This document shows positions 18,639-49,414 of a stretch of 64,000 nucleotides of DNA, in pieces. Source of the DNA: Bacteroidales bacterium (GTDB lineage Bacteria > Bacteroidota > Bacteroidia > Bacteroidales > UBA1402); NCBI GenBank assembly GCA_017464285.1, contig JAFUDT010000009.1:1-64000 (forward strand). Direction: 5' to 3'. Numbering within the stretch: the stretch's first letter is position 1; each line of letters starts with the position of its first letter. The notes under the pieces are model-generated. The model was not told the DNA's origin and ran no database searches. It saw only the letters and a program-made list of their open reading frames with translations. Made by a program: the position numbers and the translations under genes.

Positions 18639-21314
18639 CTATTTCCCCTTGATAATCCGCTTGATGTCACTCAGTTTGTTGAGTGCCTCCAAGGGTGTCA
18701 GGTTATTGACATCCAGGTTTTTGATTTCATCCCTGATCTGAGACAGCACAGGATCGTCCAGCTGGAAAAAGCTCAACTGATAACCTTCACGTTGACTGGC
18801 CAGTCCGTTGACTGGTTTGACGGCCAGGCTTCGGGCATCCTGCTCTGCTCCCTGACTCTCAAACTGCCGGAGTATATCATTTGCCCTGTTGACAATACTC
18901 TGGGGCATCCCTGCCATCTTGGCGACATGAATACCAAAACTGTGCTCGCTCCCTCCTTTGACCAATTTACGCAAAAACAACACCTTATTGTCTGCCTCCT
19001 TGACCGAGACATGGTAATTGCGAATCCTGGAAAAAGACTTTTCCATTTCGTTCAGTTCATGGTAATGGGTGGCAAACAGGGTTTTTGCCCGGTATTTCGG
19101 ATGTTCGTGGATATATTCGACAATGGCCCAGGCAATGGAGATGCCGTCATAGGTACTGGTACCCCGTCCAAGTTCGTCAAACAGCACCAGGCTGCGGTCG
19201 GACAAGTTGTTCAGGATGTCGGCTGCTTCGGTCATTTCTACCATGAAAGTGGATTCGCCCAGTGAAATATTGTCCGAAGCTCCCACCCGGGTGAAAATCT
19301 TGTCCACCAAGCCGATTTTTGCAGCCTCTGCAGGCACAAAGCATCCTATCTGAGCCATGATGACTATCAGGGCCGTCTGACGGATCAGGGCCGACTTACC
19401 CGACATATTCGGTCCGGTAATCATCAATATCTGTTCAGAAGAACTGTCAAGATGAATATCATTAGCGATATATTTTTCCCCGTCCGGCAGTTGCTGTTCG
19501 ATGACCGGATGACGGCCTGACTTGATGTCAATCTGGTCTGTCGTCAGGATTTCAGGACGGAAATAAAGATTCTTTTCCGAGACCTCTGCGAAAGAAAGCA
19601 GACAGTCGAGTTGGGCCACCACCACAGCATTCCTCTGTATCACGGAAATGTAGCAAACCAAATCCTCCATTAAGGACGCAAACAGCCCGCTTTCCAAATC
19701 GGAAATACGTTCTTCGGCTCCGAATATTTTTTCTTCATATTCCTTGAGCTCAGGCGTGATATAACGTTCGGCATTCACCAGGGTCTGCTTGCGTATCCAG
19801 TTTTCCGGTACCCTGTCTTTGTAGGTATTTCGCACCTCAATATAGTACCCGAATACATTGTTGTAACTTATTTTCAGGCTGTTGATACCTGTCCTTTCTG
19901 TCTCGCTTTCCTGCATCCGGCGAAGATAGTCCCTGCTCGATGCGGACAAATCGCGCAATTCGTCCAATTCAGCGTTGACCCCACGACGAAAAACCTCTCC
20001 CCGGTTCACGGCAATAGGCGGATTGTCAACCAGTTCTCTTTCTATTCTTTGAGTAATATCGCTGCAGGCATCAAGTTGTGCCGTCAGTGACAGCAGGTCT
20101 GCTGCTGCTTCTTCTCCGTCAAACGCGCTGTCCGCTTGCCGGAGATAGGAAACGATTTCACCCACAGCCTTCATGGAGTTCTTCAGATAGACAACATCGC
20201 GAGGCGAGGCCCGACCGACGGAAATCTTGGAGACGATACGCTCCAGGTCTCCCACCATGGCAATACGCTGGTTCAGAAAAGTCCTGAAATCGGCATTCTT
20301 ATAAAAGTATTCCACCACATTCTGTCTGGAAACAATGGCTGCAGCATCCTTCAAAGGAAACAGTACCCAACGACGAAGCAGACGGGAGCCCATGGCGGTT
20401 TGGGTATGGTCGATGATGTCGAGCAGGCTTTTTCCGCCTTCATTGATTGTGTGGCAAAGCTCAAGGCTGTTGATGGTATAGCGGTCCAGTCGCACGTACT
20501 TGTCTTCCTCGATACGGCTCAGTGTCTGGATATGCCCCAACTGCGTATGCTCGGTCATATCCATATAATACAGGACCGATCCGCTGGCTATGACGGCCAA
20601 TGTCATCTGCTGCAGACCGAAACCCTTCATGTTTTTAGTCTGAAACTGTTTTGTCAGACGGTTAACAGCAGAATCCTCGGTATATACCCAGTCTTCCATT
20701 TCGAAACGGGAGCCGGTGTAATGAAATCTATCGGTAAAAACAGCTCTCTTACTTCGTTCGTACAAGACTTCCTTTGGCATAAAAGATCCCAGAAGTTTGT
20801 CTATGTATTCAAAACTTCCCTCAGCTGTCAGGAATTCCCCTGTGGAGATGTCCAGAAACGCTATTCCCGCCCGGTTTTTTTCTATATGGATTCCGGCAAG
20901 AAAATTATTTTCGCCGATGCTGAGTACAGCATCATTGGTAGACACTCCTGGTGTTACAAGTTCTGTCACTCCCCTTTTGACCAGTTTCTTGGCTTTTTTC
21001 GGATCCTCCAACTGGTCACAGATAGCCACACGCTTCCCGGCCCTTACCAATTTGGGCAGATAGGTATCTAGTGCATGATGTGGAAAACCTGCCATTTCTA
21101 TCTTTCCAGCCGGTCCGTTGGATTTGGCCGTCATGGCAATATTGAGGATTTCTACCGCAACGACGGCATCCTGTCCGTATGTTTCATAAAAGTCTCCTAC
21201 CCGGAACAACAGAACTGTCTCCGGGTATTTTGCCTTTACTTCAAAATACTGTTTGATCAACGGGGTGTCTGATATATCTTTTGCCACTGCCTCTTTAGTT
21301 ATATTCTCTGTCAA
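18639..21314 (-). CDS. mutS: DNA mismatch repair protein MutS
   Basis: The 891-residue protein detects mispaired bases and recruits MutL. The N-terminal mismatch-binding domain has the phenylalanine wedge context ([16 protein letters not shown], normally GxFYE). The connector, lever and clamp regions follow, then the ABC-type ATPase with Walker A ([14 protein letters not shown] near residue 630), Walker B ([13 protein letters not shown]) and the closing ATHYHEL. The C-terminal dimerisation segment is present. It appears intact. A TATTTTTG box lies about 90 bases upstream. Codon use is more AT-rich than at 10-18 kb. Confidence 0.97.
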
Positions 21315-21402
21315 TAAAATGTCAGTTGTTTTTAGGTCCGGATGCCATAATTCTTTTTGTTCGGAAAAAAAAATTGTCCATTAATCAAATATCTATCTCC
21401 GC

Positions 21403-21410
21403 CAAAAATA
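21403..21410 (-). promoter_or_regulatory. -7 box for mutS
   Basis: The minus strand reads TATTTTTG, matching TAnnTTTG. No convincing -33 TTTG is seen. The leader would be about 80 bases. Confidence 0.4.
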
Positions 21411-21641
21411 AAACCTTTTATTTGCTTTTCGGATACTGACGCGGAATCTCATTTTATCAACATATATATTATACAAATAAATACTTATTAATCAGGTTAT
21501 TATATATACTTATCAACATTACTGACATCCTATTATCTTCATTCAGGTTATATTATATATAAGAAGAAATATCATAATAGTGTGTTTGTGTCGACAATCT
21601 GAAAAACAACTGCGATCCGGCTGTAAAGGTAATAAAAATAT

Positions 21642-21649
21642 TATTTTTG
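21642..21649 (+). promoter_or_regulatory. -7 box for queH
   Basis: TATTTTTG, an exact match, ends only 9 bases before the proposed ATG at 21659. No -33 match. This predicts a very short or absent leader. Confidence 0.45.
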
Positions 21650-21658
21650 CACCCTGTG

Positions 21659-22315
21659 ATGAACAAGGTCAATTATCAGTTGGAAATGGACAGACTCCTT
21701 GCCGAACTTCGTTCAGAAGGACGGGTACCTTCCCTGTTGCTGCATGTCTGTTGTGCTCCGTGCAGCAGCTATGTATTGGAGTATTTGTCTTCCTTCTTTG
21801 AAATAACTGTCCTGTTTTATAATCCAAATATCAGTCCGGAGAGTGAATATAGGAAAAGAGCCTCCGAGCTGCAGCGTTTTATCAAGGAATATCCCTTCGA
21901 GCATCCTGTAATAATAAGGGAATCAGTCTATGATTCTTCCATTTTTTATGCAGCTGTAAAAGGTCTGGAGGACGAGCCTGAACGTGGGAAGCGCTGTCAT
22001 GTCTGCTATGCTCTGCGGCTCGAAGAGACTGCCCGTTTGGCTTCAGAATTTCATTTCGATTACTTTGCCACTACTCTGACTTTGAGTCCGCTTAAAGATG
22101 CTGTACGTCTGAATGATATTGGGCAGGCCATGGGAATGAAATACCATACGGCCTATCTGCCGTCCGATTTCAAGAAAAAGGAAGGCTATAAGCGTTCTAT
22201 AGTTTTGTCTTCCCAGTTCGGTCTCTACCGTCAGAATTATTGTGGTTGTGTTTTTTCCAGGAAAGCTACTCGATCAGCTTCTGCTGATGCAGCCAGTCGA
22301 GTATCAGAGACTTGA
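21659..22315 (+). CDS. queH: Epoxyqueuosine reductase QueH
   Basis: QueH performs the last step of queuosine synthesis in tRNA, reducing epoxyqueuosine; it is the iron-sulfur alternative to QueG. The paired cysteines are present: CCAPC near residue 27, then RCHVC, then CGC near the C-terminus. I start at 21659 (MNKVNYQLEMDRLLAEL); a TTG at 21647 falls inside the -7 box. The last ~17 residues beyond CGCVFS are encoded over the end of the esterase gene on the opposite strand and look like an extension made by a missing earlier stop. queA and queF of the same pathway are also in this window. Confidence 0.93.
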   Translation: MNKVNYQLEMDRLLAELRSEGRVPSLLLHVCCAPCSSYVLEYLSSFFEITVLFYNPNISPESEYRKRASELQRFIKEYPFEHPVIIRESVYDSSIFYAAVKGLEDEPERGKRCHVCYALRLEETARLASEFHFDYFATTLTLSPLKDAVRLNDIGQAMGMKYHTAYLPSDFKKKEGYKRSIVLSSQFGLYRQNYCGCVFSRKATRSASADAASRVSET

Positions 22316-23168
22316 AAGTTTCATGATATCGGAAACTCGTTCTGAAACCCCATCCGTGACCTCCTTCTGGAAAGATATGCAAGGAGGCGGGAACATTTTT
22401 TTCTTTAAGGGCTGAGTAGAATTCAATACTGTTTTGAGGAACCACGGTCCTGTCGTCATGACTTAGAAACAATAATGTTGGCGGGGTGTCCTGAGATACT
22501 TGCAATTCGTTGGAGTAAAAACAGGCAAGTTCTTCCGTAACATCATCCCCCAGCAGGTTTTGCCTGGATCCCTTGTGGGTGATTTCCGGTTTCATGGAAA
22601 TGACTGGGTAGAAAAGAATACAGTAATCAGGACGGCAGCTGAAATGATTGACTGCATCTGGGTCGTCGGCTAAACCAGAATCAAAATGAGTGGCAGCCGT
22701 ACTGGCCAGATGACCTCCGGCAGAAAAACCTGAAATGCCTATTTTTAAAGGATTAATATGCCATTCATCGGCCTTGGATCTTAAAAACCTGATGGCTCTT
22801 TGGGCATCTTTGAGCGGAATATCATGATGAGCATTTGGCAGTCTGTATTTAAGTACGACTGCATTGATACCGTTCTCATTGAGCCACTGGGTGAAATCCG
22901 CTCCTTCATGCCTGAAGGCCTCATGCTGATAACCGCCGCCGGGGCACAGTACAAGAGTGACGCCGGTGTTTTTTTCCGGACTGGCCAGGGAAACGAATAT
23001 TGAGGCTGTCGTGACATTGCGGTAACTACCGTTTTTATCTGTAGTTTCATTATCGGCAATACCGTTGCTTTCAGGTGTTCCTTCAGGCCAAAGAGGGTAC
23101 TCCACGAGATTCTCCGCCACACACGAAAGTATGGTCAGACCAAATAATAAGGAAAACAATAATCTCAT
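22266..23168 (-). CDS. Alpha/beta hydrolase, acetylxylan-esterase-like lipoprotein
   Basis: About 300 residues with a lipoprotein signal (MRLLFSLLFGLTILSC), so probably anchored in the envelope. The hydrolase core shows the oxyanion-loop region LVLCPGGGYQ, the nucleophile elbow GFSAGG, an acid region (LFLSHDDRTVVP) and the catalytic His in GGHGWG. Closest in pattern to carbohydrate esterases that remove acetyl groups from xylan or related glycans. An ATG two codons upstream (23174) is an alternative start. Its 3' end overlaps queH by 50 bases on the other strand. The substrate is inferred. Confidence 0.8.
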   Translation of the reverse strand: MRLLFSLLFGLTILSCVAENLVEYPLWPEGTPESNGIADNETTDKNGSYRNVTTASIFVSLASPEKNTGVTLVLCPGGGYQHEAFRHEGADFTQWLNENGINAVVLKYRLPNAHHDIPLKDAQRAIRFLRSKADEWHINPLKIGISGFSAGGHLASTAATHFDSGLADDPDAVNHFSCRPDYCILFYPVISMKPEITHKGSRQNLLGDDVTEELACFYSNELQVSQDTPPTLLFLSHDDRTVVPQNSIEFYSALKEKNVPASLHIFPEGGHGWGFRTSFRYHETFKSLILDWLHQQKLIE

Positions 23169-23189
23169 AATCATACTATTATATAAAAT

Positions 23190-26093
23190 TTAATGAGCTT
23201 CTAACCAATTACTGCCCACGCCGACATCGGCTTTCAAAGGAATGGATAAATGAACAGCATTCTCCATATTGTCAGTGACAATTCTCTTGACTTGTTCGAT
23301 TTCCTGTTCTGGAACGATAAAGTTCAGTTCATCGTGGACTTGAAGTATCATTTTGGTTTTCAGTCCTTGTTTGTTCAAATCACGATAAATATTGACCATG
23401 GCTATCTTAATGATGTCGGCTGCAGTGCCCTGGATAGGTGCATTGATGGCGTTACGTTCGGCATAACCTCTTACTACGGCGTTATGGGAAACAATGTCTG
23501 GCAAATATCGTTTACGGTGGAAAATTGTTTCTGTGTATTTTGTTTCCTGGGTCTTTTTAATGGCATTGTCCATATATTCCTTCACCTTTGGATAGGTTTG
23601 GAAGTAGCCTTCAATCAGTGATTTTGCTTCTGCTCTGGGTACATTCATCCGGGTAGCCAGTCCGAAGTTGGAAATACCGTAGATGATGCCGAAATTGGCC
23701 GTTTTTGCCTTTCGTCGCATATCTGATGTAACTTCATCAAGTTTTACTTTATAGATTTTTGCCGCTGTTGCCTGATGAATGTCATGGTCCTCGGTGAAAG
23801 CTTCTATCATATTTGGATCTTGACTCAGGTGAGCCATTATTCTCAATTCTATCTGAGAGTAGTCGGCCGAGAGGAATACTTCGCCCTTGTCGGCAGAGAA
23901 AACTTTTCTCATTTCTTTGCCCATTTGGTCGCGAATGGGGATGTTCTGCAAATTCGGATTACTCGAACTTAGGCGACCGGTAGCGGTAACCGTCTGATTG
24001 AAAGAGGTGTGTATTTTGCCGGTCTGAGGATTAATCAGTTGGGGAAATGCATCGACATAAGTACTGAGTAATTTGTTTATACCTCTATATTCCAGTAGTT
24101 TACCTATGATAGGATGATTATTTTTGATACTGGTGAGAAATTCTTCCGATGTAGAGTATTGCTTGGTTCCTTTTGTTTTCTTCACCTTGTCGGTCACTTG
24201 CAGTTTTTCAAACAGGATTTGACCGGCCTGTCTGCTGGAATTGATATTGAAACGTTCTCCTGCCAGGAGGTAGATATCTTCTTCTATTTTTTTTAGTTCT
24301 TCCCGAAGCTGGGTAGAGTAAGCCTTCAGGGCTTCGGTGTCGATACTGACACCTGTCAGTTCCATGTCGGCCAATACATAAACCAGAGGCAATTCTACCT
24401 GATAGAAAAGGTATTGCAGTTGTTCCTTTTCAATTTGTTCTTCAAGTAGTGGTTTCAACTGCCAGACGACATCGCTCTGTTCGGCGACCAGAAGGGTTGT
24501 CTCTTGGGCGGAACCAGACCGATAGTGGAGATAGTTGGCTGCCAGTTCTTCAATGCTGTGTTTCACTTCCGTCTGAAGCAGATAGTGTGCTATCATTGTA
24601 TCAAACACGAGTCCCTGCAGCCTGATGCCATATCGGTACAGCACCATGATATCAAACTTGAGATTATGTCCGACTTTTTCTGTCAGTTCATCTTCGAAGA
24701 AAGGACGCAGATCCTCCAGCATCTTTATACAGTTTTCCCGACTGGCAGGACAAGGGATATACCAAGATTCGTGCGCATGAAAGGTAAAGGATATTCCGAC
24801 AAGATCTGCCGTCATGGCATCGGTTGTGCTGCACTGCGTCTTAAAACTGCATTTTTCCTGTACACGGAGTTTCGATAGAAAAACGTGTTTTTTTTCTTCA
24901 TTATCAATGATATAATAATTGTGTTCAGTCGATTTTAAGTCTTTGAGATTTGGCTGCGCAAAAACACTCGGGGAGTCGGATTCGATTATTCCAGTGAAAA
25001 GGCTGTCTGAAACAAGGTTCTCGCTCTGTACGACTGCCGCTTGGGCTGCTGTTGGCACTGACTTGTCCTCGACTTCTTGAACGGAGTCCCAAAGTGATAG
25101 TTGCTGCTGATTATCTTTCTGGGCAGACAAATTCGGGTTACTGTCATTTTTAAAAACAATTTTACCATGTGTCGGCGTTATGATCGTGGCTGCTTGCGCC
25201 GTCGAAGGATTTTCATACGTTGCTGTTGCGCTTTTGCGTCCTATCCATGATCTGAACTCCAGCCGCTGAAAAATTGCCTTCACTTTTTCCTCATCCCGGG
25301 CAGTAACCAACAAATCTGTTTCTTCGAATTCAACGGGAACATCAGTACGGATGGTAGCCAGAAAATGCGAGAAACGGATCAAGTCTTTATTCTGTTCGAT
25401 TTTTTCCTTGACAGATCCTTTCAATTCGTCGGTGTGTTCCAGAAGATTGTCCACATGACCGAACTGTGCAATCAGCTTTTGAGCCCATACCTTGCCTATT
25501 CCAGGGCATCCTGGAATATTGTCGGAAGCATCTCCCATCAGGCTGAGCAGGTCTATTATCTGTGAGCTTTCCTTGATACCGTATTTTTCGCATACCTCTG
25601 CCGGACCAAGGATGTCGAAATCGGATGAGCCATAGCGCGGTTTATAGATGAAAGCATGTTCGCATACCAGTTGTCCATAGTCTTTGTCGGGCGTCATCAT
25701 ATAGACATCAAAGCCCTTTTCAACGGCCTTTTTCGATAGTGTTCCAATTACATCGTCAGCTTCGAATCCAGGGACTTCTAAAATGGGAATATGATAGGCC
25801 CTCAGTAATTCTTTGATAAATGGGATCGACCAGCGGATGGTCTCAGGCGTTTCCTCCCTTTGTGCCTTGTAGGCTTCGTAGGCTTCGTGACGGAAGGTTT
25901 TTCCGCTAGGGTCGAAGGCAACAGCCAGGTGGCTTGGATTTTCCTTTTTCAGCACATCCTCCAAGGTATTCAAAAAACCGAAAACAGCTGAGGTATTCTC
26001 CCCTTTCGAGTTGATTCTCGGATTTTTGATGAAGGCATAGTAAGAGCGGTAAATCAATGCATAGGCATCCAGCAGGAATAATCTTTTTCTCAT
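23190..26093 (-). CDS. polA: DNA polymerase I with a degenerate proofreading site
   Basis: The 967-residue protein has all three Pol I regions: 5'-3' exonuclease (FEADDVIGTL, GDASDNIPGCPGIGKVWAQKL), the 3'-5' exonuclease-like domain, and the polymerase with motif A (DYSQIELRIMAH), motif B (RRKAKTANFGIIYG) and motif C (QVHDEL). In the proofreading domain the Exo I motif, normally DxE, reads FKTQ: Lys418 and Gln420 replace Asp and Glu, while the Exo II Asp is kept (GHNLKFDIMVL). Proofreading is therefore probably absent. A non-conserved linker of about 100 residues (around 300-400) separates the first two domains. The gene starts at 26093, with a -7 box about 25 bases upstream. Confidence 0.96.
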   Translation of the reverse strand: MRKRLFLLDAYALIYRSYYAFIKNPRINSKGENTSAVFGFLNTLEDVLKKENPSHLAVAFDPSGKTFRHEAYEAYKAQREETPETIRWSIPFIKELLRAYHIPILEVPGFEADDVIGTLSKKAVEKGFDVYMMTPDKDYGQLVCEHAFIYKPRYGSSDFDILGPAEVCEKYGIKESSQIIDLLSLMGDASDNIPGCPGIGKVWAQKLIAQFGHVDNLLEHTDELKGSVKEKIEQNKDLIRFSHFLATIRTDVPVEFEETDLLVTARDEEKVKAIFQRLEFRSWIGRKSATATYENPSTAQAATIITPTHGKIVFKNDSNPNLSAQKDNQQQLSLWDSVQEVEDKSVPTAAQAAVVQSENLVSDSLFTGIIESDSPSVFAQPNLKDLKSTEHNYYIIDNEEKKHVFLSKLRVQEKCSFKTQCSTTDAMTADLVGISFTFHAHESWYIPCPASRENCIKMLEDLRPFFEDELTEKVGHNLKFDIMVLYRYGIRLQGLVFDTMIAHYLLQTEVKHSIEELAANYLHYRSGSAQETTLLVAEQSDVVWQLKPLLEEQIEKEQLQYLFYQVELPLVYVLADMELTGVSIDTEALKAYSTQLREELKKIEEDIYLLAGERFNINSSRQAGQILFEKLQVTDKVKKTKGTKQYSTSEEFLTSIKNNHPIIGKLLEYRGINKLLSTYVDAFPQLINPQTGKIHTSFNQTVTATGRLSSSNPNLQNIPIRDQMGKEMRKVFSADKGEVFLSADYSQIELRIMAHLSQDPNMIEAFTEDHDIHQATAAKIYKVKLDEVTSDMRRKAKTANFGIIYGISNFGLATRMNVPRAEAKSLIEGYFQTYPKVKEYMDNAIKKTQETKYTETIFHRKRYLPDIVSHNAVVRGYAERNAINAPIQGTAADIIKIAMVNIYRDLNKQGLKTKMILQVHDELNFIVPEQEIEQVKRIVTDNMENAVHLSIPLKADVGVGSNWLEAH

Positions 26094-26115
26094 ATCAATT
26101 CTATGATTGGCCCTT

Positions 26116-26123
26116 CAAAAATA
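26116..26123 (-). promoter_or_regulatory. -7 box for polA
   Basis: The minus strand reads TATTTTTG, exact to consensus, 22 bases before the polA ATG. The -33 element is not clear. Confidence 0.45.
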
Positions 26124-26175
26124 CGTAATTTTGGTATGTATTCTCTTTTTTCCCCCGCTTTTTTCCGATTTGCAT

Positions 26176-26183
26176 TATCTTTG
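26176..26183 (+). promoter_or_regulatory. -7 box for the polyprenyl synthase gene
   Basis: TATCTTTG, exact to consensus, ends 17 bases before the ATG at 26201. The expected -33 region is T-rich (TTTTTT) without an exact TTTG. Confidence 0.5.
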
Positions 26184-26200
26184 TAGCCCCAAGGAAAGCT

Positions 26201-27166
26201 ATGATAGACCGCATCAGAAAGCCTGTAGAGGCTGATTTTCTCAAGTACCGTCAGTTGATGGTATCTTCTTTTTCTTCCGATAATGAGATATTGTCTTCCG
26301 TGTCGGCTTATCTTTCCGAGTCTCAGGGTAAGCAGTTCCGTCCGGTTTTTCTACTTCTGTCGGCTGCGATTGCCGGAGGTGTCCGTCAGTCTTCGGTCAC
26401 CATGGCTGTCGCCCTGGAGTTGCTGCATACTGCCAGCCTCTTGCATGATGATGTGGTGGATGTTTCCGATCAGCGTCGTTCTCGCCCGACTGTGAATGCG
26501 GTGTGGAACAACAAAACGGCCATTTTATCGGGAGATTATTTTCTTTCTAAGGTTATCGGGCTGGTGGCTTCCACGTTCAGCCCAGCTTTGATGCAAGGCC
26601 TGGCACAGACCGGGCAGTCCTTGGCTGACGGCGAGTTGCTCCAGCTTAGTCATGCAGGCAGCCTGACAACTAATGAGCAGACATATTTTGAAATAATCCA
26701 AAAAAAAACGGCCAGCCTTTTTGCCTATTCGGCCTATGCGGGGGCTGTAACAGCAGGAGCAGACGAGAACACGGCCTCTGTTTTAAGGCAGTTTGGTATG
26801 TGTCTAGGCTATATCTTCCAAATGCGGGATGATGTTTTTGATTTTCTTGAGTCTGGGCAAATCGGGAAACCTGCGGGTGCCGATTTAAGGGAAGGAAAGC
26901 TGACTTTACCTTTGATTTATGCCTTGAATTCGAAAGATTATTCTCTTCCGTTGAAGGAATTATTGCGAGATTTCAGTAACCTCTCCACACAGCAGTTGCA
27001 GGAAATCTCCCGTTTGACATTTGCCTCCGGAGGTGTGACTTATGCCAACGATAAAATGTCGGAAATCAAAACCAAAGCACTTTCTTTGCTCGAAAGTTTT
27101 CCCGAATCGGAATTCCGGTCTTCTCTGGCGATGTGTCTTGATTATGCCATGAATCGCCAACGCTGA
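26201..27166 (+). CDS. Polyprenyl diphosphate synthase (octaprenyl/heptaprenyl type)
   Basis: A trans-isoprenyl diphosphate synthase of 321 residues that extends farnesyl diphosphate for the menaquinone side chain. Both Asp-rich metal-binding motifs are visible: LLHDDVVDVSDQRR (first DDxxD) near residue 80 and FQMRDDVFDF (second) near residue 208. The GKQFRPVF substrate motif precedes the first. Chain length cannot be fixed by eye. It is divergent from polA and ends 2 bases before the convergent mazG-like gene. Confidence 0.9.
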   Translation: MIDRIRKPVEADFLKYRQLMVSSFSSDNEILSSVSAYLSESQGKQFRPVFLLLSAAIAGGVRQSSVTMAVALELLHTASLLHDDVVDVSDQRRSRPTVNAVWNNKTAILSGDYFLSKVIGLVASTFSPALMQGLAQTGQSLADGELLQLSHAGSLTTNEQTYFEIIQKKTASLFAYSAYAGAVTAGADENTASVLRQFGMCLGYIFQMRDDVFDFLESGQIGKPAGADLREGKLTLPLIYALNSKDYSLPLKELLRDFSNLSTQQLQEISRLTFASGGVTYANDKMSEIKTKALSLLESFPESEFRSSLAMCLDYAMNRQR

Positions 27167-27168
27167 GC

Positions 27169-27495
27169 TTAGGTGAGCTTGGGGTTGTTCAAGTGTCTTT
27201 CTCTGTCCCGGGTGGTTTTTTTCTTCCAGTTTTTTTCAAATGCCTCGCTCAAATCTGTTCCTGTTTGATTGGCCAGGCAGATCAGGACCCATAATACATC
27301 CGCCAGTTCGTCGCCTAAATCGGCTTCAGCTTCTTTGTTTTTGAAGGATTGTTCCCCATAGCGCCGGGCAATGATTCTTGCCACTTCTCCCACTTCTTCT
27401 GTGAGAATCGCCATATTGGTCAGTTCGTTGAAGTAACGGACACCATAGGATTTAATCCATTCATCTACTTTTATTTGTGCTTCTTTTATTGTCAT
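27169..27495 (-). CDS. MazG-like nucleotide pyrophosphohydrolase
   Basis: A 108-residue all-alpha protein with the MazG/dUTPase-like metal site: EEVGEVARII followed by the ADLGDELADVLWVL motif (ExxE...ExxD type). Members hydrolyse non-canonical or excess NTPs. It starts 2 bases after the dtd stop and is the last gene of the mnmG-uvrC-dtd run, a common Bacteroidetes order. Confidence 0.88.
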   Translation of the reverse strand: MTIKEAQIKVDEWIKSYGVRYFNELTNMAILTEEVGEVARIIARRYGEQSFKNKEAEADLGDELADVLWVLICLANQTGTDLSEAFEKNWKKKTTRDRERHLNNPKLT

Positions 27496-27497
27496 AG

Positions 27498-27953
27498 TCA
27501 GTATGTTTTTTGTTTTGAATCGACCCAGATGGTCACAGGCCCGTTGTTTTCGATCGAGACGAGCATGTCTGCTCCGAAGATTCCCTTCTTGCAGCGCTTT
27601 CCGAAAATATCACCAATTCTGTCGCACAGTTTTTCATAGATTTTTTCCCCAGTCTCTGGTCTGGCGGCCCGGATAAACGACGGTCTGTTTCCTTTGGCAG
27701 TCTGTGCCATCAAGGTGAATTGGCTGACAACGAGTATATCTCCGTCTATATCACCGACAGAAAGGTTCATCAGTCCGTTTTCATCGCTGAATATTCGCAT
27801 CTTTACTACCTTCCCTGCCAGATATTCCACGTCTTCCTCTGTGTCGCCTTCCTCTACTCCGGCCAGAATAAGCAATCCTTTTCCTATTTTAGTGTGTTGT
27901 ACGCCGCCTATCGTAACGCTGGCCGAAAGGACTCTTTGTATCAGCAGTCTCAT
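27498..27953 (-). CDS. dtd: D-aminoacyl-tRNA deacylase Dtd
   Basis: The 151-residue enzyme removes D-amino acids (and Gly) mischarged on tRNA. Family motifs are intact: SQFTLMAQTAKGNRPSF around residue 78 and the cross-subunit Gly-cisPro motif in NNGPVTIWVDS near the C-terminus. The start overlaps the uvrC stop by 4 bases, so translation is likely coupled. Confidence 0.96.
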   Translation of the reverse strand: MRLLIQRVLSASVTIGGVQHTKIGKGLLILAGVEEGDTEEDVEYLAGKVVKMRIFSDENGLMNLSVGDIDGDILVVSQFTLMAQTAKGNRPSFIRAARPETGEKIYEKLCDRIGDIFGKRCKKGIFGADMLVSIENNGPVTIWVDSKQKTY

Positions 27954-29818
27954 GATTCGTTTTCTGTGTGAAAGAACTTATATATTATGTTTGCACGACT
28001 TTTACCGGCTACTTGTATTATTTCTTCCAGGCTTGCCTCTTTTATTTTCTGAGTACTTTTGAAGGTTGAAAGCAGTTTCTTTTTGGTTACCGGGCCGATG
28101 TTCTTGATGTCATCCAATAGGGAGTGTATCTGTGATTTGCTTCTAAGTTTCCGATGAAAAGTAATGCCGAATCGATGTGCCTCGTCCCTCAGTTGCTGTA
28201 TTAGTTTCAAACTTTCCGAATCCTTGTTCAGATACAGTGGGATGGAGTCACCTGGAAAGTAGATTTCTTCCAGCTTTTTAGCGATACCGATAAGCTGTAT
28301 CTTGTCAATTTTCTCCTGAAAGGCTTTTCTTTCCTCTGTATTATAGTCTTTAAAATCCTCATTATCAGTCAAATTCCTCATTGTCTTAACCGCCGATGAC
28401 AGTTGCCCTTTACCTCCGTCGACAATGACCAACTGGGGCAGCTCCTGGTCTTCTTTCAGCAGCCTGCTATATCTTCTGTGCAGGATTTCTTCCATAGAGG
28501 CGAAGTCATTGGCTCCTATAACTGTTTTAATGCTGAAATGTCGGTAGTCTTTTTTTGATGGGCGTGCTTTTTTGAAAACTACGCAGGAGGCAACGGGGTG
28601 AGTACCCTGTATATTTGAGTTGTCGAAACACTCGATATGCATGGGCAGCTCTTTCATGTGCAAGTCTGTTTTCAGTTGCTGCAAGATTCTGCTGGCACGC
28701 TGGTCTGGATTAAGTTTTTCCTGTTGTTTGAGTATGTCCAGTTTATATTGTCGTACGTTTCTTTCGGACAGATCCAGTATTTTCTTTGCATCTCCCCTTT
28801 TGGGAACGATAAAATCAATGCCGTCTATTTGCATATTGGGTGGAAAGGGTACGATGATACTTTTGTTTACACTGTGAAAGCGTTTTCTCATCTCAAAAAT
28901 TCCGGAGGCCAGTATATCTTCTTTTTCTTCTTCAATGTGTTTCCGATATTCAAAAGTATAGGCTTGGATAATGCACCCTTGCCGAATATTAAGATAGTTG
29001 ATATATGCGGCGTGATCGTTTTCATCATAAGAATAGACATCTATTCTGTCCAGATGGCTGTTGACAACATAAGATTTACTGCGGAAACCTTCAATAAGTT
29101 CCAATTTCACTTTGTATTCCTGGGCCTTTTCGAATTCCAGTTTGTCAGCGTATGCCCTTATTTTTTCTCTTAGTTCTGATTCGATGCTTTTCAGGTTGCC
29201 CTTTAGAATTTCTCTTATTTGAGCAATGTCTTTTTCGTAAGCTTCTTTACTCTGTTCCCCGATACATGGGCCTTGACACTGGTGCAGGTGGTAGTACAGA
29301 CAGACATTGTATTTTTTCTCCTTGATCATGTTTTCATCCATCGCCAGGCTGCAACGTCTAAGCGGATATATTTTTTTGATCAGGTCAAGCAGCGTATATA
29401 CCATGGGCACAGAACTGTACGGCCCGAAATACTCGGAACCGTCCCGAACGGTCTTTCTTGTCATGAACACTCTTGGGAAAGATTCCTTTTTTATACAGAT
29501 GCTCGGATAGGTTTTATCATCTTTGAGGAGAATGTTGTATCGTGGTTTATATTGCTTGATCAGGTTGTTCTCAAGAAGAAGAGCGTCTGTTTCGCTCTCG
29601 ACCACGGTATATCGTATATCCCGGATTTTCCTTACCAAAATCCTTGTTTTGGGAGAATCTTCGTGTTTTTTATTGAAGTAAGAGTGAACTCTTCTTTTCA
29701 GGTTCTTGGCTTTACCGACATAGATGATGACGCCTTCCTCGTTGAAATATTGATATACGCCTGGTTTTTCAGGAATCCTGTCCAATATTTCTTTAATATG
29801 TTTGTCTACGGTCATCAT
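27950..29818 (-). CDS. uvrC: Excinuclease ABC subunit C (UvrC)
   Basis: UvrC makes both incisions in nucleotide excision repair. The N-terminal GIY-YIG nuclease is clear (KPGVYQYFNEEGVIIYVGKA), followed by a UVR interaction region (KLEFEKAQEYKVKLELIE near residue 210), the RNase-H-like endonuclease (IECFDNSNIQGTHPVASCVV, VIVDGGKGQL) and C-terminal helix-hairpin-helix motifs (LLDDIKNIGPVTKKKLL). I start at 29818 (MMTVDKHIKEIL). The open frame extends to 29890, but that would translate through the two parS-like sites, and the added residues are not UvrC-like. It overlaps dtd by 4 bases. Confidence 0.96.
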   Translation of the reverse strand: MMTVDKHIKEILDRIPEKPGVYQYFNEEGVIIYVGKAKNLKRRVHSYFNKKHEDSPKTRILVRKIRDIRYTVVESETDALLLENNLIKQYKPRYNILLKDDKTYPSICIKKESFPRVFMTRKTVRDGSEYFGPYSSVPMVYTLLDLIKKIYPLRRCSLAMDENMIKEKKYNVCLYYHLHQCQGPCIGEQSKEAYEKDIAQIREILKGNLKSIESELREKIRAYADKLEFEKAQEYKVKLELIEGFRSKSYVVNSHLDRIDVYSYDENDHAAYINYLNIRQGCIIQAYTFEYRKHIEEEKEDILASGIFEMRKRFHSVNKSIIVPFPPNMQIDGIDFIVPKRGDAKKILDLSERNVRQYKLDILKQQEKLNPDQRASRILQQLKTDLHMKELPMHIECFDNSNIQGTHPVASCVVFKKARPSKKDYRHFSIKTVIGANDFASMEEILHRRYSRLLKEDQELPQLVIVDGGKGQLSSAVKTMRNLTDNEDFKDYNTEERKAFQEKIDKIQLIGIAKKLEEIYFPGDSIPLYLNKDSESLKLIQQLRDEAHRFGITFHRKLRSKSQIHSLLDDIKNIGPVTKKKLLSTFKSTQKIKEASLEEIIQVAGKSRANIIYKFFHTENES

Positions 29819-29825
29819 TTTTGTT

Positions 29826-29841
29826 TGTTTCACGTGGAACA
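29826..29841. promoter_or_regulatory. parS centromere-like site (exact 16-bp match)
   Basis: The bases TGTTTCACGTGGAACA equal the reverse complement of the well-known parS TGTTCCACGTGAAACA bound by ParB/Spo0J. It sits in the short gap between mnmG and uvrC. ParB spreads from such sites to organise origin-proximal DNA. Confidence 0.8.
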
Positions 29842-29873
29842 ATTCTTCTTCCCTGCTGCTCTGTCCCCGTGAA

Positions 29874-29889
29874 TGTTCCACGGGGAACA
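29874..29889. promoter_or_regulatory. Second parS-like site (one central mismatch)
   Basis: TGTTCCACGGGGAACA differs from the palindrome TGTTCCACGTGGAACA at one base. It lies 32 bases from the exact site (48 bases centre to centre), just past the mnmG stop. It may be a weaker ParB site or a decayed copy. Confidence 0.5.
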
Positions 29890-29896
29890 TATGAAA

Positions 29897-31771
29897 TTAA
29901 CGACCCAGTAAAACCAGCAGAACGCTGATGTCGCTGGGCGAGACCCCCGGAATGCGGCTGGCTTGTCCCAGAGTGTCGGGTTGTATTCTGTTTAGTTTTT
30001 GTCGGGCTTCGAACGAGAGAGATGTGATCTGGGAATAGTCAAATCTGCCGTTGATGCGGATACTGTCCAGACGTTTTATTTTGTCGGCCTGCAGGCGCTC
30101 TCTTTCTATATAGCCTTGATACTTGATACGAATTTCAGCTGCTTCGATGATTTCTTCCTGCCGATTGGGAATCCTTTCCATCCTGGTTTTCAGGGCTGGG
30201 ATATGTTCTTTTAGCTGTTCAAAGCCCAGCTGAGGGCGGAGTATGAGAGAGCTGAGCCTGGTTCCTTGCTCCAGCGGGGTTGTTTGCAGCTGCTCCAGCG
30301 CGGAATTAATGTAGCGGGCTTTGACAGGATAGTCTTGGCAGAAAGAGATAAGTTCGTCTATCTCTTTTTCTTTTTCTTTCCACAGATCATAACGCTCCCG
30401 TCGTGCGAGTCCTATCTGATATGATTTTTCTGTCAGGCGGGCGTCTGCATCATCCTGACGGAGCAGGATGCGGTATTCGGCCCGTGATGTGAACATTCGG
30501 TAGGGCTCGTCCACCCCCTTGTTGATCAGGTCGTCAATGAGCACACCAATGTAGGATTCATCTCTTGAAAGCACGAATTCATGAAGTCCATGACAAAGCT
30601 GGTGGGCGTTGATGCCGGCAATAATCCCCTGTCCGGCAGCCTCTTCATAGCCGGTTGTTCCATTGATTTGCCCGGCAAAAAACAGCCCTTTGACAAGTTT
30701 GGTCTCCAGAGAAGCTTTTAACTGTGTAGGATCGAAATAATCGTATTCAATGGCATAGCCCGGGCGGTAAATCTGAACATCTCTCAGGCAGGGAATTTTC
30801 TGCAGGGCAGCCAGCTGAGTCTGCAGCGGGAGGGAAGAGGAAAAGCCATTCAGATAGTACTCCTGGCTGTCTTCGCCTTCCGGTTCAAGAAACAGCTGGT
30901 GCCTGTCTTTGTCTGCAAAATTGACGATTTTTGTTTCGATACTGGGGCAATAACGAGGACCGATGCTCTTGATCTGTCCGTTGTATAGAGGCGACTCTCC
31001 CAGATCGGCCCGTAGTACATCGTGTACTTGCGGATTAGTGTAGCATATCCAGCAGCTGAGCTGTTTGAGCGGTCTGGGTTGGAAGTCGAGGAAGGAAAAC
31101 TTGTGGAAATCGTTGTCGCCGGGCTGTTCTTCCATTTCATCAAAATACACGCTGCGTGCATCTATGCGGACAGGGGTCCCTGTTTTCATCCGGCCGGTGG
31201 TAAATCCCAGGTTTTTCAGCTGGTCGCTCAAACCCATTGATGCCGGTTCGGCCAATCGTCCGCCGGAAATCTGGGTGCGCCCGATATGAATCAGGCCATT
31301 CAGGAAAGTACCGTTGGTCAGTACGACACACTTGGCTCGGAAATGGACATTCATGGTCGTGATAAGCCCGGTCACCTGTCCGTGTTCAATGATCAGTTCT
31401 TTGACTGTGTCCTGCCAAAGATACAGATTATCAATATTTTCCAATACTTTTCTCCAGGCCAGGATAAATTTCTGGCGGTCGCTTTGTGAGCGAGGACTCC
31501 ACATGGCCGGTCCTTTGGATCGGTTCAGCATCCGGAATTGTATGGCCGTTTGGTCAGTAACAATGCCTGTATAGCCGCCAAGCGCATCTATTTCTCTGAC
31601 AATCTGTCCTTTCGCTATTCCGCCAATGGCCGGATTACAACTCATCTGAGCTATTTTGTTCATGTCCATGGTGATGAGCAGGGTCTGAGATCCCATATTA
31701 GCTGCAGCCGCTGCTGCTTCACAGCCGGCATGTCCGGCCCCTACCACGATGACATCGTAACAAAACTTCAT
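29897..31771 (-). CDS. mnmG: tRNA uridine-5-carboxymethylaminomethyl synthase MnmG (GidA)
   Basis: With MnmE, this FAD protein modifies the wobble uridine of several tRNAs. The dinucleotide-binding motif VVGAGHAGCEAA opens the 624-residue chain. The conserved CNPAIGGIAKGQIVREIDALGG and NGTFLNGLIHIG segments follow, and the C-terminal MnmE-binding helical region is complete (DYSQITSLSFEARQKL, TLGQASRIPGVSP). It follows ybeY by 5 bases. In many bacteria gidA lies close to oriC, which agrees with the parS sites just downstream. Confidence 0.97.
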   Translation of the reverse strand: MKFCYDVIVVGAGHAGCEAAAAAANMGSQTLLITMDMNKIAQMSCNPAIGGIAKGQIVREIDALGGYTGIVTDQTAIQFRMLNRSKGPAMWSPRSQSDRQKFILAWRKVLENIDNLYLWQDTVKELIIEHGQVTGLITTMNVHFRAKCVVLTNGTFLNGLIHIGRTQISGGRLAEPASMGLSDQLKNLGFTTGRMKTGTPVRIDARSVYFDEMEEQPGDNDFHKFSFLDFQPRPLKQLSCWICYTNPQVHDVLRADLGESPLYNGQIKSIGPRYCPSIETKIVNFADKDRHQLFLEPEGEDSQEYYLNGFSSSLPLQTQLAALQKIPCLRDVQIYRPGYAIEYDYFDPTQLKASLETKLVKGLFFAGQINGTTGYEEAAGQGIIAGINAHQLCHGLHEFVLSRDESYIGVLIDDLINKGVDEPYRMFTSRAEYRILLRQDDADARLTEKSYQIGLARRERYDLWKEKEKEIDELISFCQDYPVKARYINSALEQLQTTPLEQGTRLSSLILRPQLGFEQLKEHIPALKTRMERIPNRQEEIIEAAEIRIKYQGYIERERLQADKIKRLDSIRINGRFDYSQITSLSFEARQKLNRIQPDTLGQASRIPGVSPSDISVLLVLLGR

Positions 31772-33630: not shown

Positions 33631-33815
33631 TTTGGTTAGTTTAACACAGGCTTTGGCATCTTTGTATTAAAGAATCCCAATCAGGCTTGACAGAACCGAT
33701 AATTATATAGTTATTTGCCGATCTGTTTCGTACAAAGCAACAGCCAAAGTAAACCTTTTTGGAGAAAACGATTCTAAAGTTAGATTTTGAGATGACTATC
33801 ACTAATCATTTTTTT

Positions 33816-35357
33816 ATGAAAGCAAAACATTACACTCTTCGTGGCCTGACTTTTGTCATGGCTGCTGCCTGTGCATTGACGGTCAATGCACAGGTGACGA
33901 AATTCTCCGGCGTAGAGCCTGAACCGGGCATGATACCCCCTCATCCCACCCGTCTGCCTGAAGTTGTTATCCCTGCCTTTCCTGGAGCTTGGGGAGCCGG
34001 TATGTTCACTCAGGGCGGCCGCGGAGGTAAGGTCTATGTGGTGACCAACCTGGAAGACAAAGGCCCCGGCAGCCTGCGTGAGGCTCTTGAAGCCGAAGGA
34101 CCGCGCATTGTGGTATTCCGCGTGGCCGGTACTATCAAAATTGACAAGGACATCAACATCAACCATCCTTATGTAACGATTGCCGGCCAGTCGGCTCCCG
34201 GTGACGGTATTTGCTTAGCCGGAACACTGAACATCAATACCTATGAGGTTATTGTCCGTCATATCCGTGTTCGTCGTGGTGTGCCAGTCGGCGGACAGGG
34301 TGACGACAACATCGGCGGTAACCCCGACCACCACATCATTATCGACCACTGTTCGGCTTCCTGGGGCATGGACGAAAACATTTCGCTGTATCGCCATATG
34401 CGCCCCTCGGCAGACGGCAAGACCCAGATCAAGGACCCTGCCAGGTTTGTCACCATCCAGTGGACAATCTCCAGTGAGGCTTTGAACGCCCGTAACCATG
34501 CCTTCGGCGGTACTTGGGGCGGCTCGCCTTCCACACAGCATCACAACCTGTTTGCCTGCAATACTGCCCGTAATCCGTCAATCGGCATGTCCGGTGCTTT
34601 CGATTACCGCAACAACGTAGTTTTCAACTGGCGTCATCGTACCATGGACGGCGGCGACGAGACCTCTCTGGTCAATGTCATCAACAACTATTACAAACCG
34701 GGTCCTGCCACCAACGAGAATATGAAGACCGTGTTTGCCCGTATCGAGGAGCGCCACATGTATTCCCCTGGTAGCGCCTGGGCAGCCGGTGACTGGTATG
34801 CCAAGGAAAAGAATCCTGCCAACCGTCCAGGTAAATGGTATGTGGCCGGAAACATTATGGAGGGTTCCGACGAAGTGACTCTTGACAACTGGAAAGGAAT
34901 GCGCGGTAATGAAAAATGGGCCCGTGTCAATACCCCCTTTGAAGGCTGGCCTGTTGCCCCGCACCATACGGCTCTTGAGGCCTACAAAGCAGTCTTGGCC
35001 GGTGTCGGTGCCACCCTGCCCCGCCGTGATGCTGTCGATGCCCGTGTCGTCGAGATGGTCCGTTCTGGCAAGCCTGTGACAGAAACGGGTATTATCAGTG
35101 ACATCTCAGAGGTCGGCGGCTATCCCGAACTGACCTACAAGAAATCCGAGGTCCTGAAGGATACCGACAACGACGGAATGCCTGATGAATGGGAAAAGAA
35201 GTACGGCCTGAATCCGAAGGATGCCGGCGATGCCGCTCAGGATCTTGACAAGGACGGTTACACCAACATCGAAGAATTCCTCAACGGCACAGATCCTACG
35301 GAATACCTGAACTATCGTAATCTGGGCAATAACATTGACAGAATCAGCATGAAGTAA
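33816..35357 (+). CDS. Secreted pectate lyase, polysaccharide lyase family 1
   Basis: I start at 33816, giving a signal peptide MKAKHYTLRGLTFVMAAACA cleaved near VNAQ; 513 residues. The beta-helix shows PL1 patterns: FPGAWGAGMFTQGGRGGKVYVVTNL, AGQSAPGDGI, and the conserved VRHIRVRRG and DHCSASWGMDEN segments. It cleaves polygalacturonate by beta-elimination. The C-terminus has calcium-loop-like repeats (DTDNDGMPDEWEKKYGLNP, then DLDKDGYTNIEEF), seen in secreted enzymes as thrombospondin-3/dockerin-like modules. It may pair with the PL9-like enzyme at 46.3-48.7 kb in pectin breakdown. Confidence 0.9.
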   Translation: MKAKHYTLRGLTFVMAAACALTVNAQVTKFSGVEPEPGMIPPHPTRLPEVVIPAFPGAWGAGMFTQGGRGGKVYVVTNLEDKGPGSLREALEAEGPRIVVFRVAGTIKIDKDININHPYVTIAGQSAPGDGICLAGTLNINTYEVIVRHIRVRRGVPVGGQGDDNIGGNPDHHIIIDHCSASWGMDENISLYRHMRPSADGKTQIKDPARFVTIQWTISSEALNARNHAFGGTWGGSPSTQHHNLFACNTARNPSIGMSGAFDYRNNVVFNWRHRTMDGGDETSLVNVINNYYKPGPATNENMKTVFARIEERHMYSPGSAWAAGDWYAKEKNPANRPGKWYVAGNIMEGSDEVTLDNWKGMRGNEKWARVNTPFEGWPVAPHHTALEAYKAVLAGVGATLPRRDAVDARVVEMVRSGKPVTETGIISDISEVGGYPELTYKKSEVLKDTDNDGMPDEWEKKYGLNPKDAGDAAQDLDKDGYTNIEEFLNGTDPTEYLNYRNLGNNIDRISMK

Positions 35358-35384
35358 TCCGCTTGGATTTCGCGACAAATGATA

Positions 35385-35416
35385 GAATGGGTCGGACTGC
35401 CTGGTCCGGCCCGTTC
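35385..35416 (+). terminator. Hairpin after the pectate lyase gene
   Basis: GAATGGGTCGGAC and GTCCGGCCCGTTC pair over 13 bp (two G-T wobbles) around a 6-base loop, followed by a weak TTGTT. It probably ends the lyase transcript. Confidence 0.5.
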
Positions 35417-35479
35417 TTGTTGAAAGACGGCATGAAAGATAACACTGCCGGTTTTCTTGCATTTGGGGAGAGTTTGACG

Positions 35480-35487
35480 TATCTTCG
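35480..35487 (+). promoter_or_regulatory. -7 box for ruvB
   Basis: TATCTTCG (one mismatch to TAnnTTTG) ends 20 bases before the ruvB ATG. No good -33. Confidence 0.35.
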
Positions 35488-35507
35488 CTTCCCGATAGTG
35501 TTTCAGT

Positions 35508-36530
35508 ATGGAAGAAAAGTTCGATATACGCAGTCAGTCGTTCGCAGAAAAGGAGCAGGATTTTGAGAAGGCATTGCGACCACTGTCCTTTTCGGATTTC
35601 CGGGGTCAGCAGAATATTGTCGAGAATCTCAGAGTCTTTGTATCGGCGGCCAAGATGAGGCAGGAGCCGATGGATCATGTGCTTCTGCATGGCCCTCCGG
35701 GACTGGGGAAAACCACATTGTCCAATATTATAGCCAATGAGCTGGGAGTCGGTTTCAAGGTGACGTCAGGGCCGGTGCTCGATAAACCGGGTGATTTGGC
35801 GGGCCTGCTTACTTCATTGGAACCAAACGATGTCCTTTTCATCGATGAAATCCATCGTTTAAGCCCAATAGTGGAGGAGTATCTTTACTCGGCCATGGAG
35901 GATTACCGCATCGATATCATGATAGACAAAGGACCGAGTGCCCGCTCTATCCAGCTTGACCTGAATCCTTTTACGATGATCGGGGCCACCACCCGAAGCG
36001 GACTGCTGACAGCCCCGTTGCGAGCCCGTTTTGGCATCAATTGTCATCTGGAGTATTATCCGGCAGAGATTCTCAAGGGTATTATTGTCCGTTCGGCCCG
36101 GTTGCTCAGCATCCCTTGCGAAGAAAGTGCCGCCGAAGAAATTGCCCGTCGGAGCCGGGGAACGCCCCGAGTGGCCAATGCTTTGCTGCGCCGGGTGCGC
36201 GACTTTGCCCAGGTCAAGGGGAGCGGCCGCATCACGCTTGAAATTGCCAAATACGCATTGTCGGCACTTAACATCGACACTTATGGACTTGATGAAATCG
36301 ACAACAAAATACTGTTGACAATTATCGACAAGTTCCACGGGGGGCCGGTCGGACTGACAACGATCGCAACTGCTCTGAGCGAGGATCCCGGCACCCTGGA
36401 GGAAGTCTATGAGCCCTTTCTCATACAGGAGGGATTCCTCAAGCGGACTCCCCGCGGCCGCGAGGTGACCGATTTAGCCTGGACACATTTGGGCCGCAGC
36501 CGTTTCGGTAAAGAAGGATCATTGTTCTAA
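35508..36530 (+). CDS. ruvB: Holliday junction branch-migration helicase RuvB
   Basis: The motor of RuvABC, 340 residues, hexameric. Walker A is [14 protein letters not shown] near residue 60, Walker [11 protein letters not shown] near residue 111, sensor [19 protein letters not shown], and the C-terminal winged helix ends in [15 protein letters not shown]. The protein is complete. The flippase gene follows 17 bases after it. ruvA and ruvC are not in the window. Confidence 0.97.
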
Positions 36531-36547
36531 CCTTTTATTTTTGATAT

Positions 36548-38026
36548 ATGCCTGGACTGAAAAGTTTGGCCAAAGACACTGCCATTTACGGGCTGAGCAG
36601 CATTATCGGCAAGTTTCTTAACTGGTGTCTGGTGCCCTTTTATACCTATGCCCTGAAAGAATCGGCCGAATATGGTATTGTCACCGAGCTGTACAGTTGG
36701 ACCGCCGTGGTTATCGTGATCCTCACCTATGGCATGGAAACCGGATTCTTCCGTTTTGTCAATCGGGAGGACAAAGACCCCGATCAGGTGTATTCTACCA
36801 CATTGTGCAGTCTGGCTTCGACGTCGTTCCTCTTTATTTTACTGGGGCTGCTATTGCTGCCGCAGATTTCCCGCGGTATCGGCTATACCAGCCATCCTGA
36901 ATTCATTGGGATGATGATATGTATTGTGGCGGTCGATGCCTTTTCATCGATACCTTTTGCCTATCTTCGCTATAAAAACAGGCCGCTTCGATTTGCCTCG
37001 CTCAAGCTGCTGTCAATTTTCATCAACATTTTCTTCAACCTGTTTTTTATCTGGATTTGTCCCAAGATACATGCTCTTTATCCGGAGTGGATCAGCTGGT
37101 TCTACCGGCCCGGTTACGAAGTAGGATATGTCTTCGTTGCCAACGCTCTCTCAACGGGTATCACCCTGTTGGCCCTCTTGCCGGATTTCATTCATGTCAA
37201 ACTGAATTTCAACCGACAGTTGCTCCGACAGATGTTGCGTTATTCGCTTCCCTTGCTGGTGCTGGGCATTGCCGGTATCATGAACCAGGATTTTGACAAG
37301 ATTATTTTCAAGCATCTGTTTGACGATCCGAATCAGGCGCAGTCGCAGTTGGGTATCTATGGAGCCTGCTGCAAGATTGCCATTATCATGATGATGTTTA
37401 CCCAGGCCTTCCGGTATGCCTACGAGCCCTTTGTTTTTGCCAAAAACCGCACAGCCGACAATCGTCAGGCCTATGTAGAGGCGATGAAGTATTACATCAT
37501 TTTCGCTTGGTTGATATTTCTTGTGGTAGTTTTTTATATCGATATCATTAAATATCTGATATCCAGCAGGTATCACGATGGCCTTGCCGTAGTGCCTGTA
37601 GTGCTGGCCTGTTATCTGTTCCAGGGAGTCTTCTTTAATCTGTCGCTGTGGTACAAGTTGACCGATAAAACCCAATGGGGGGCATATATCACCATTTTCG
37701 GCTGTTTACTGACCGTTGCCGGCAATTTGCTCTTCGTTCCGCGTTACGGCTATATGGCGGCAGCATGGACCTCCTTTGTGAGCTATTTCCTGATGATGTT
37801 AGTCAGCTGGGCGCTGGGTCAGAAATACTACCCGATGAAATATGATATGAAGTCGGCCCTTTTCTATACGATACTGACAATGGTAGTTTTTGTTATTGGA
37901 ACAAATCTGCCGTTTTCATCGCTGGTTCTCCGCTTGATTATTCGGACCTTGCTGTTGGGAGTCTTTCTGCTGGTTGTCCTCAAGAGGGATCTGCCCTTTG
38001 AGGTCTTCCGTAAGGTCCGCCAGTAA
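36548..38026 (+). CDS. Polysaccharide/lipid flippase (Wzx/MATE-like)
   Basis: A 492-residue membrane protein with about 12-14 helices, starting LAKDTAIYGLSSIIGKFLNW, the usual opening of Bacteroidetes oligosaccharide flippases of the MVF/MATE superfamily. It probably moves lipid-linked sugars across the inner membrane. It follows ruvB in the same direction, which is common in the phylum. Its last 111 bases overlap folK on the other strand. Confidence 0.88.
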   Translation: MPGLKSLAKDTAIYGLSSIIGKFLNWCLVPFYTYALKESAEYGIVTELYSWTAVVIVILTYGMETGFFRFVNREDKDPDQVYSTTLCSLASTSFLFILLGLLLLPQISRGIGYTSHPEFIGMMICIVAVDAFSSIPFAYLRYKNRPLRFASLKLLSIFINIFFNLFFIWICPKIHALYPEWISWFYRPGYEVGYVFVANALSTGITLLALLPDFIHVKLNFNRQLLRQMLRYSLPLLVLGIAGIMNQDFDKIIFKHLFDDPNQAQSQLGIYGACCKIAIIMMMFTQAFRYAYEPFVFAKNRTADNRQAYVEAMKYYIIFAWLIFLVVVFYIDIIKYLISSRYHDGLAVVPVVLACYLFQGVFFNLSLWYKLTDKTQWGAYITIFGCLLTVAGNLLFVPRYGYMAAAWTSFVSYFLMMLVSWALGQKYYPMKYDMKSALFYTILTMVVFVIGTNLPFSSLVLRLIIRTLLLGVFLLVVLKRDLPFEVFRKVRQ

Positions 38027-49371: not shown

Positions 49372-49414
49372 CATATCTTTTTTTATGATAGTTTGTCGCG
49401 ATTGAAAACCATGA

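Follow-up and report, generated by a model that had tools for sequence, protein, structure and literature searches.

An exact parS site and a near-copy beside mnmG form a probable origin-proximal centromere in a Bacteroidales bacterium

Two 16-bp sites in the gap between uvrC and mnmG of a Bacteroidales bacterium are very probably a genuine origin-proximal parS, to judge from their sequence and surroundings, and as such an ordinary kind of element. They lie in the window (the whole stretch of DNA that was analyzed, 64,000 nucleotides), which belongs to a 153-kb contig. ParB grips parS while newly replicated chromosomes are separated, and this type of site is well known. The less expected aspects are the attachment of parS to mnmG and a candidate replication origin (oriC) that can be proposed at the level of single bases. 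The features of the parS locus are as follows.

29826..29841, plus strand: parS site 1, exact TGTTTCACGTGGAACA, found by sequence match; the sole exact copy in the assembly
29874..29889, plus strand: parS-like site 2, TGTTCCACGGGGAACA, with one mismatch against TGTTYCACGTGRAACA, found by sequence match; the same 16-mer occupies the same position in G004, a genome of the same genus
29819..29896, no strand: uvrC–mnmG intergenic gap of 78 bp containing both parS sites, from open reading frames and relatives' alignments
27950..29818, minus strand: uvrC (TIGR00194, E 5.2e-149), its likely start being the ATG that ends at 29818
29897..31771, minus strand: mnmG, also known as gidA (TIGR00136, E 5.9e-246), with its stop codon toward the parS pair

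The first-pass annotation had claimed an exact 16-bp ParB/Spo0J sequence at 29826–29841, a near-copy at 29874–29889 and a chance origin that was very unlikely, and each of these claims holds. Both sequences are present at those coordinates, site 1 matching the 16-bp consensus exactly and site 2 with a single mismatch, each as a full or near-full palindrome. From base composition, 64 kb should hold 3.1e-5 exact copies of the 16-mer by chance, and the genome 1.2e-3. The spacing of the two sites is 48 bp, and site 2 and site 1 lie 7 and 55 bp, respectively, from the stop codon of mnmG; about 8e-6 sites with at most one mismatch are expected no farther than 100 bp to either side of a chosen point. 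A scan of the genome assembly (2,366,992 bases in 20 contigs, 83.5% complete) finds no second exact copy, and with up to two mismatches it returns the pair and one place at position 6410 of contig C2. This stray match, which appears only at two mismatches, is taken as noise because the reversed pattern, used as a control at equal tolerance, also matches three times in the assembly. The copies are few and clustered (two places within 64 bp) and not evenly scattered in this 83.5% complete assembly, from which additional parS sites might therefore be absent.

The longest uvrC frame opens at an ATG at 29890 and would enclose both sites. However, because the UvrC family profile match starts at residue 34 of this frame and the uvrC of near relatives aligns from the in-frame ATG at 29818, the pair likelier lies in a non-coding gap than inside uvrC, as had been suggested for the case that uvrC starts at 29818. 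Neighboring genes on the minus strand are mutS, an esterase-like gene, polA, a MazG-like gene, dtd, uvrC, mnmG, ybeY and a Gate-domain gene, and those on the plus strand are queH, a polyprenyl synthetase gene and ruvB. The best named matches of mnmG are from Dysgonomonas and Parabacteroides (72%), which points to Bacteroidales as the order of the genome. An Rfam scan of the window returned a tRNA only. In a comparison of window 33759–38026 with loci L043 and L108–L109, the block containing ruvB is inverted relative to the same-genus genomes G003 and G001, and the uvrC–parS–mnmG arrangement is intact.

The window had also been called probably origin-proximal, and GC skew by itself agrees. Within the window the skew turns from negative to positive, and the cumulative minimum of the 153-kb contig falls at 21544, which is 8.3 kb from parS. 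This minimum lies in the gap between mutS and queH (21315–21646), which from its sequence features is probably oriC. The features of this gap are as follows.

21315..21646, no strand: candidate oriC, the mutS–queH gap, 332 bp, 73% AT, from the skew minimum and the most AT-rich 250 bp of the contig
21454..21462, plus strand: DnaA-box-like TTATCAACA, found by sequence match
21510..21518, plus strand: DnaA-box-like TTATCAACA, found by sequence match, with a weaker box-like 9-mer directly after it at 21519–21527
21524..21536, plus strand: conserved element RACANNCTATHAT, a box end plus a trio-like run, common to the mutS segments of all seven family genomes
21574..21586, minus strand: inverted second copy of RACANNCTATHAT, found by motif scan

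Two of the contig's five TTATCAACA 9-mers lie in the gap (Poisson P 5.8e-5, for a test chosen after seeing the gap), and RACANNCTATHAT has two further copies in the contig, at 49385 and 61107. The classical DnaA box TTATCCACA is absent from the 153-kb contig, which first suggested that the contig held no oriC; this idea was dropped once the TTATCAACA variant was found in the skew-minimum gap. A strict scan for a box plus five DnaA-trios is negative in the contig and in 20 kb each of Bacteroides fragilis and G116 (a relative assembled as a single contig of 3.47 Mb). By inspection, the gap fits a lenient rule for the basal unwinding system (BUS), which asks for three or more 3'-NAN-5' trios no farther than 16 bp from a DnaA box; the box is at 21510–21518 and 5'-ATT ATC TTC ATT at 21532–21543. 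The inverted copies of RACANNCTATHAT are 50 bp apart around an AT-rich core (21524–21586), an arrangement also present in G004, and the pair could serve as a two-sided unwinding element.

The alternative that survives best accepts parS and places the origin elsewhere, so that the skew flip would reflect local noise or the edge of an inversion, and the AT-rich gap at mutS would be an ordinary promoter region. It is unlikely, and it draws on the size of the contig (just 153 kb), on the shallow skew curve (values within 40 of the minimum from 20839 to 28542, and shallow across 20–35 kb) and on three of the seven family genomes (G001, G003 and G006), in which the local skew minimum is 16–27 kb from the mutS segment. 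Against it, a single 332-bp gap holds the minimum, the AT peak and the box pair. In six of the seven family genomes no other 250 bp of the fetched stretch is as AT-rich as the segment 5' of mutS, which ranks second in G004, and in G000, G004, G007 and G009 the local skew minimum lies within about 0.6 kb of this segment. All seven have a local minimum at most 19 kb from parS, in stretches of 24–153 kb that were chosen around parS and so favor nearness. In G006, the mutS–queH pair is inverted and the AT-rich segment moves along with it.

Two complete chromosomes also argue against an origin elsewhere. In the 5.2-Mb chromosome of B. fragilis, which was not used in defining the motif, the skew minimum is at 4,492,976, and one of the two RACANNCTATHAT matches in 440 kb sits 11 bp away, with five TTATCAACA boxes within about 2 kb. 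Of 20 skew samples, 19 fit flips near the minimum and near 2 Mb. Here the distance from the minimum to mnmG and a one-mismatch parS is 104 kb (2%), a second one-mismatch parS is 10 kb from the first, and parB is about 777 kb from parS. In G116, whose sequence helped widen the motif, the skew minimum is at 2,547,347 and RACANNCTATHAT lies about 20 bp away; five TTATTAACA boxes are found within 1.2 kb, and parS is 19 kb from the minimum. The G116 minimum is near the left edge of a densely sampled stretch (from 2,540,001), and skew samples are negative both at 2.50–2.52 Mb, the nearest leftward, and at 2.64–2.66 Mb, rightward. Coarse sampling of G027 places the skew flip between 370 and 400 kb and parS at 423 kb, with one negative sample at 440–460 kb. 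In G154 (a complete genome in one contig of 4.38 Mb, from the same class), the skew is messy and ambiguous over the 10 sampled places.

The attachment of parS to mnmG in many Bacteroidota is a striking and less expected part of an otherwise ordinary centromere. Of 60 genomes of the order, 42 have exact parS (reversed control, 0/60), as do 110 of 148 genomes of the phylum (reversed control, 1/148), the window's own genome being counted in both sets. The surroundings of at least one site were read in each of the 42 order genomes, leaving out one additional site each in G025 and G052, and all 42 have at least one exact site no more than 272 bp from an mnmG match. G041 has a second exact parS 13 kb away, and G012 has one parS site at a contig end beside uvrC. 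In the phylum set, mnmG is within 1.5 kb of parS at 26 of the 29 loci read; at L092, parS is at the contig start with ybeY alongside, and L081 and L084 have exact parS with neither mnmG within 1.5 kb nor ybeY beside it. Several genomes carry parS sites about 1.9 kb apart, which is the length of mnmG, and where such loci were read, for example in G143 (L090) and G193 (L093), mnmG starts or ends beside the first of the sites.

The same association appears when loci are chosen blind to parS. Among 80 named mnmG loci (the best 80 of a longer list), exact parS is found within 800 bp outside mnmG in 52 and parS with at most one mismatch in 68, and the reversed pattern at equal tolerance is absent from all 1,496,533 bases. 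These loci are not independent trials because they have common ancestry. The 12 of 80 loci where no near parS was found include L195, in which the 3' flank is just 23 bp. In most Bacteroidales-named loci, parS is 3' of mnmG, commonly 3–60 bp from the match end; Chryseobacterium loci have parS on both sides of mnmG, and several loci with parS 5' of mnmG are from genera that we take to be Cytophagales. Exact parS lies 3.5–4.9 kb 3' of mnmG in two more of these 12, L136 (a Paludibacteraceae metagenome-assembled genome) and L137 (Bacteroidales UBA1181), and in L169 (the Prevotellaceae metagenome-assembled genome Nc350_bin217) an exact parS form is found within the mnmG match, with two more just downstream. 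We recognized no report of parS beside mnmG in a literature search that used few terms and had the standard survey (Livny et al., 2007) and most subscription papers outside its scope.

This distribution bears on the idea that the palindromes serve mnmG or uvrC as a terminator or regulatory element, through which a protein or a hairpin controls transcription. Their symmetry and their position, close to where mnmG ends and immediately upstream of uvrC, would suit such a role, but in some Bacteroidota the same sequence is upstream of mnmG or flanks it on both sides, uvrC is not adjacent to parS in many relatives, and the sequence is that of a ParB site and not a generic palindrome, which makes transcriptional control very improbable. 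Chance matches, despite the shortness of the sequence and the one further stray match in the genome at two mismatches, are scarcely credible given 3e-5 exact copies expected per window and the retention of the site next to mnmG across many genomes, for which the control is empty.

Exact parS is absent from 18 of the 60 order genomes. A uvrC search of these 18 and of G003 gave a match in 15 of the 18, some of them fragments or weak paralogues. G001 and G004 have two one-mismatch parS sites each at the uvrC locus, G042 and G047 have one each, and the remaining fetched uvrC loci of genomes lacking the exact site show no parS within flanks of about 1.5 kb. Exact parS is likewise absent genome-wide from B. 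fragilis Q1F2 and B. ihuae, and both carry a one-mismatch parS 9–11 bp from mnmG. In the window's own genus, the four genomes in which the uvrC–mnmG region was found (its own included) have two sites each, 48–180 bp apart, with one exact and one one-mismatch site each in G000 and G003; the uvrC search returned nothing for G002 and G005. When G000 is aligned with G004, and G003 with G001, the parS 16-mers prove to be kept amid diverged flanks.

The genes for ParA (identity assigned from its sequence) and ParB are adjacent on contig C2, not beside the parS sites, and the gene for DnaA is on contig C19. With contigs joined end to end, the minimum possible distance from parS is about 40 kb for parB and about 97 kb for dnaA. 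ParB is 290 residues long, and it matches solved structures of Spo0J, ParB and Noc. One study describes R173 and G201 (Caulobacter numbering) as absolutely conserved in ParB orthologs and replaced by Q and R in Noc, and lists the contact residues Q162 and S172 as conserved between ParB and Noc (PMC7383237). When this numbering is transferred by eye via the structure-match alignment (an offset of 10 fits all four named residues), the ParB of this genome carries R173, Y179, K184 and G201 together with the GERR motif, as a cognate parS-type ParB would, and deviates at two further contact residues, with H at Q162 and K at S172. The possibility of a Noc binding site was rejected, since the protein has R173 and G201 and not the Noc-type Q173 and R201.

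Of 39 relatives searched for ParB, 37 gave a match. In an alignment of 30 ParBs (29 relatives and the genome's own), R173 is present in 30/30 and G201 in 28/30 (A in two); position Q162 is Q in 24, H in five and V in one, and position S172 is K in 22/30. GERR is present in all 30 by construction because frames were selected by this motif, and L279 (GGRR) was left out. No SMC above the family cut-off was found in the 83.5% complete assembly, in which three matches are weak and below the cut-off; loading of SMC by ParB is therefore doubtful in this genome, with the incompleteness of the assembly in mind. This absence agrees with the lack of known SMC condensins in the two gut Bacteroidetes species examined in PMC10197239.

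We consider it highly likely, from these sequence comparisons, that the two sites are the chromosomal centromere of a Bacteroidales-type bacterium, with ParB loading and spreading, ParA-driven segregation and an origin 8.3 kb away. In this model, ParB, which belongs to the CTP-dependent clamp family and whose gene sits with that of ParA at another place in the genome, would load at the exact site; loading at the near-copy, 48 bp from it, is also probable. Loaded ParB would then spread over the flanking DNA, and ParA would move the parS region apart, carrying with it the newly copied origin predicted at about 21.3–21.65 kb.

A broader proposal can be made as one joint claim, for and against which we see the case as evenly balanced. 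Bacteroidota may hold parS beside mnmG and not beside oriC, dnaA or parAB, as a relic of an ancestral gidA–parAB–dnaA origin cluster that dnaA and parAB have left and from which oriC has drifted by up to about 100 kb, and the origin may be marked phylum-wide by TTATCAACA or TTATTAACA followed by CTATHAT, here to base resolution. The pairing of mnmG and parS could mark the origin side of Bacteroidota chromosomes, fragmentary metagenome genomes included. As a marker of the origin, dnaA misleads in this phylum, going by two studies, in which Bacteroidetes oriC is commonly distant from dnaA (PMC4755523) and ori is not systematically at dnaA (PMC10197239). The findings raise the questions of what keeps parS within tens of bases of mnmG and of what ParB–parS does in a phylum in which no known SMC condensins were found in the two species examined (PMC10197239) and no SMC above the cut-off in this assembly.

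Among known systems, the locus resembles chromosomal parS/ParABS of the Spo0J–Soj type in its 16-bp TGTTYCACGTGRAACA palindrome, in a ParB with GERR and R173/G201, in the ParA–ParB pair and in its origin-proximal position, whereas here parAB is on another contig and SMC above the cut-off was not found in the incomplete assembly. In PMC10197239, 12 gut bacteria (two of them Bacteroidetes) are reported to have their parS clusters at ori, which was called from skew together with parS and backed by read coverage. The origin genes given in PMC2099444 are gidA/gidB, parA/parB and dnaA/dnaN; here mnmG (gidA) and parS are likewise near the candidate origin, but other contigs carry dnaA and parAB, and the candidate oriC is 5' of mutS. 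A BUS-type oriC, as described in PMC8287927, consists of DnaA boxes and DnaA-trios. The candidate shares with it a box, a short spacer, a trio-like run and an AT-rich stretch, and differs in that its boxes are TTATCAACA or TTATTAACA and not TTATCCACA and that its trio run is short and imperfect.
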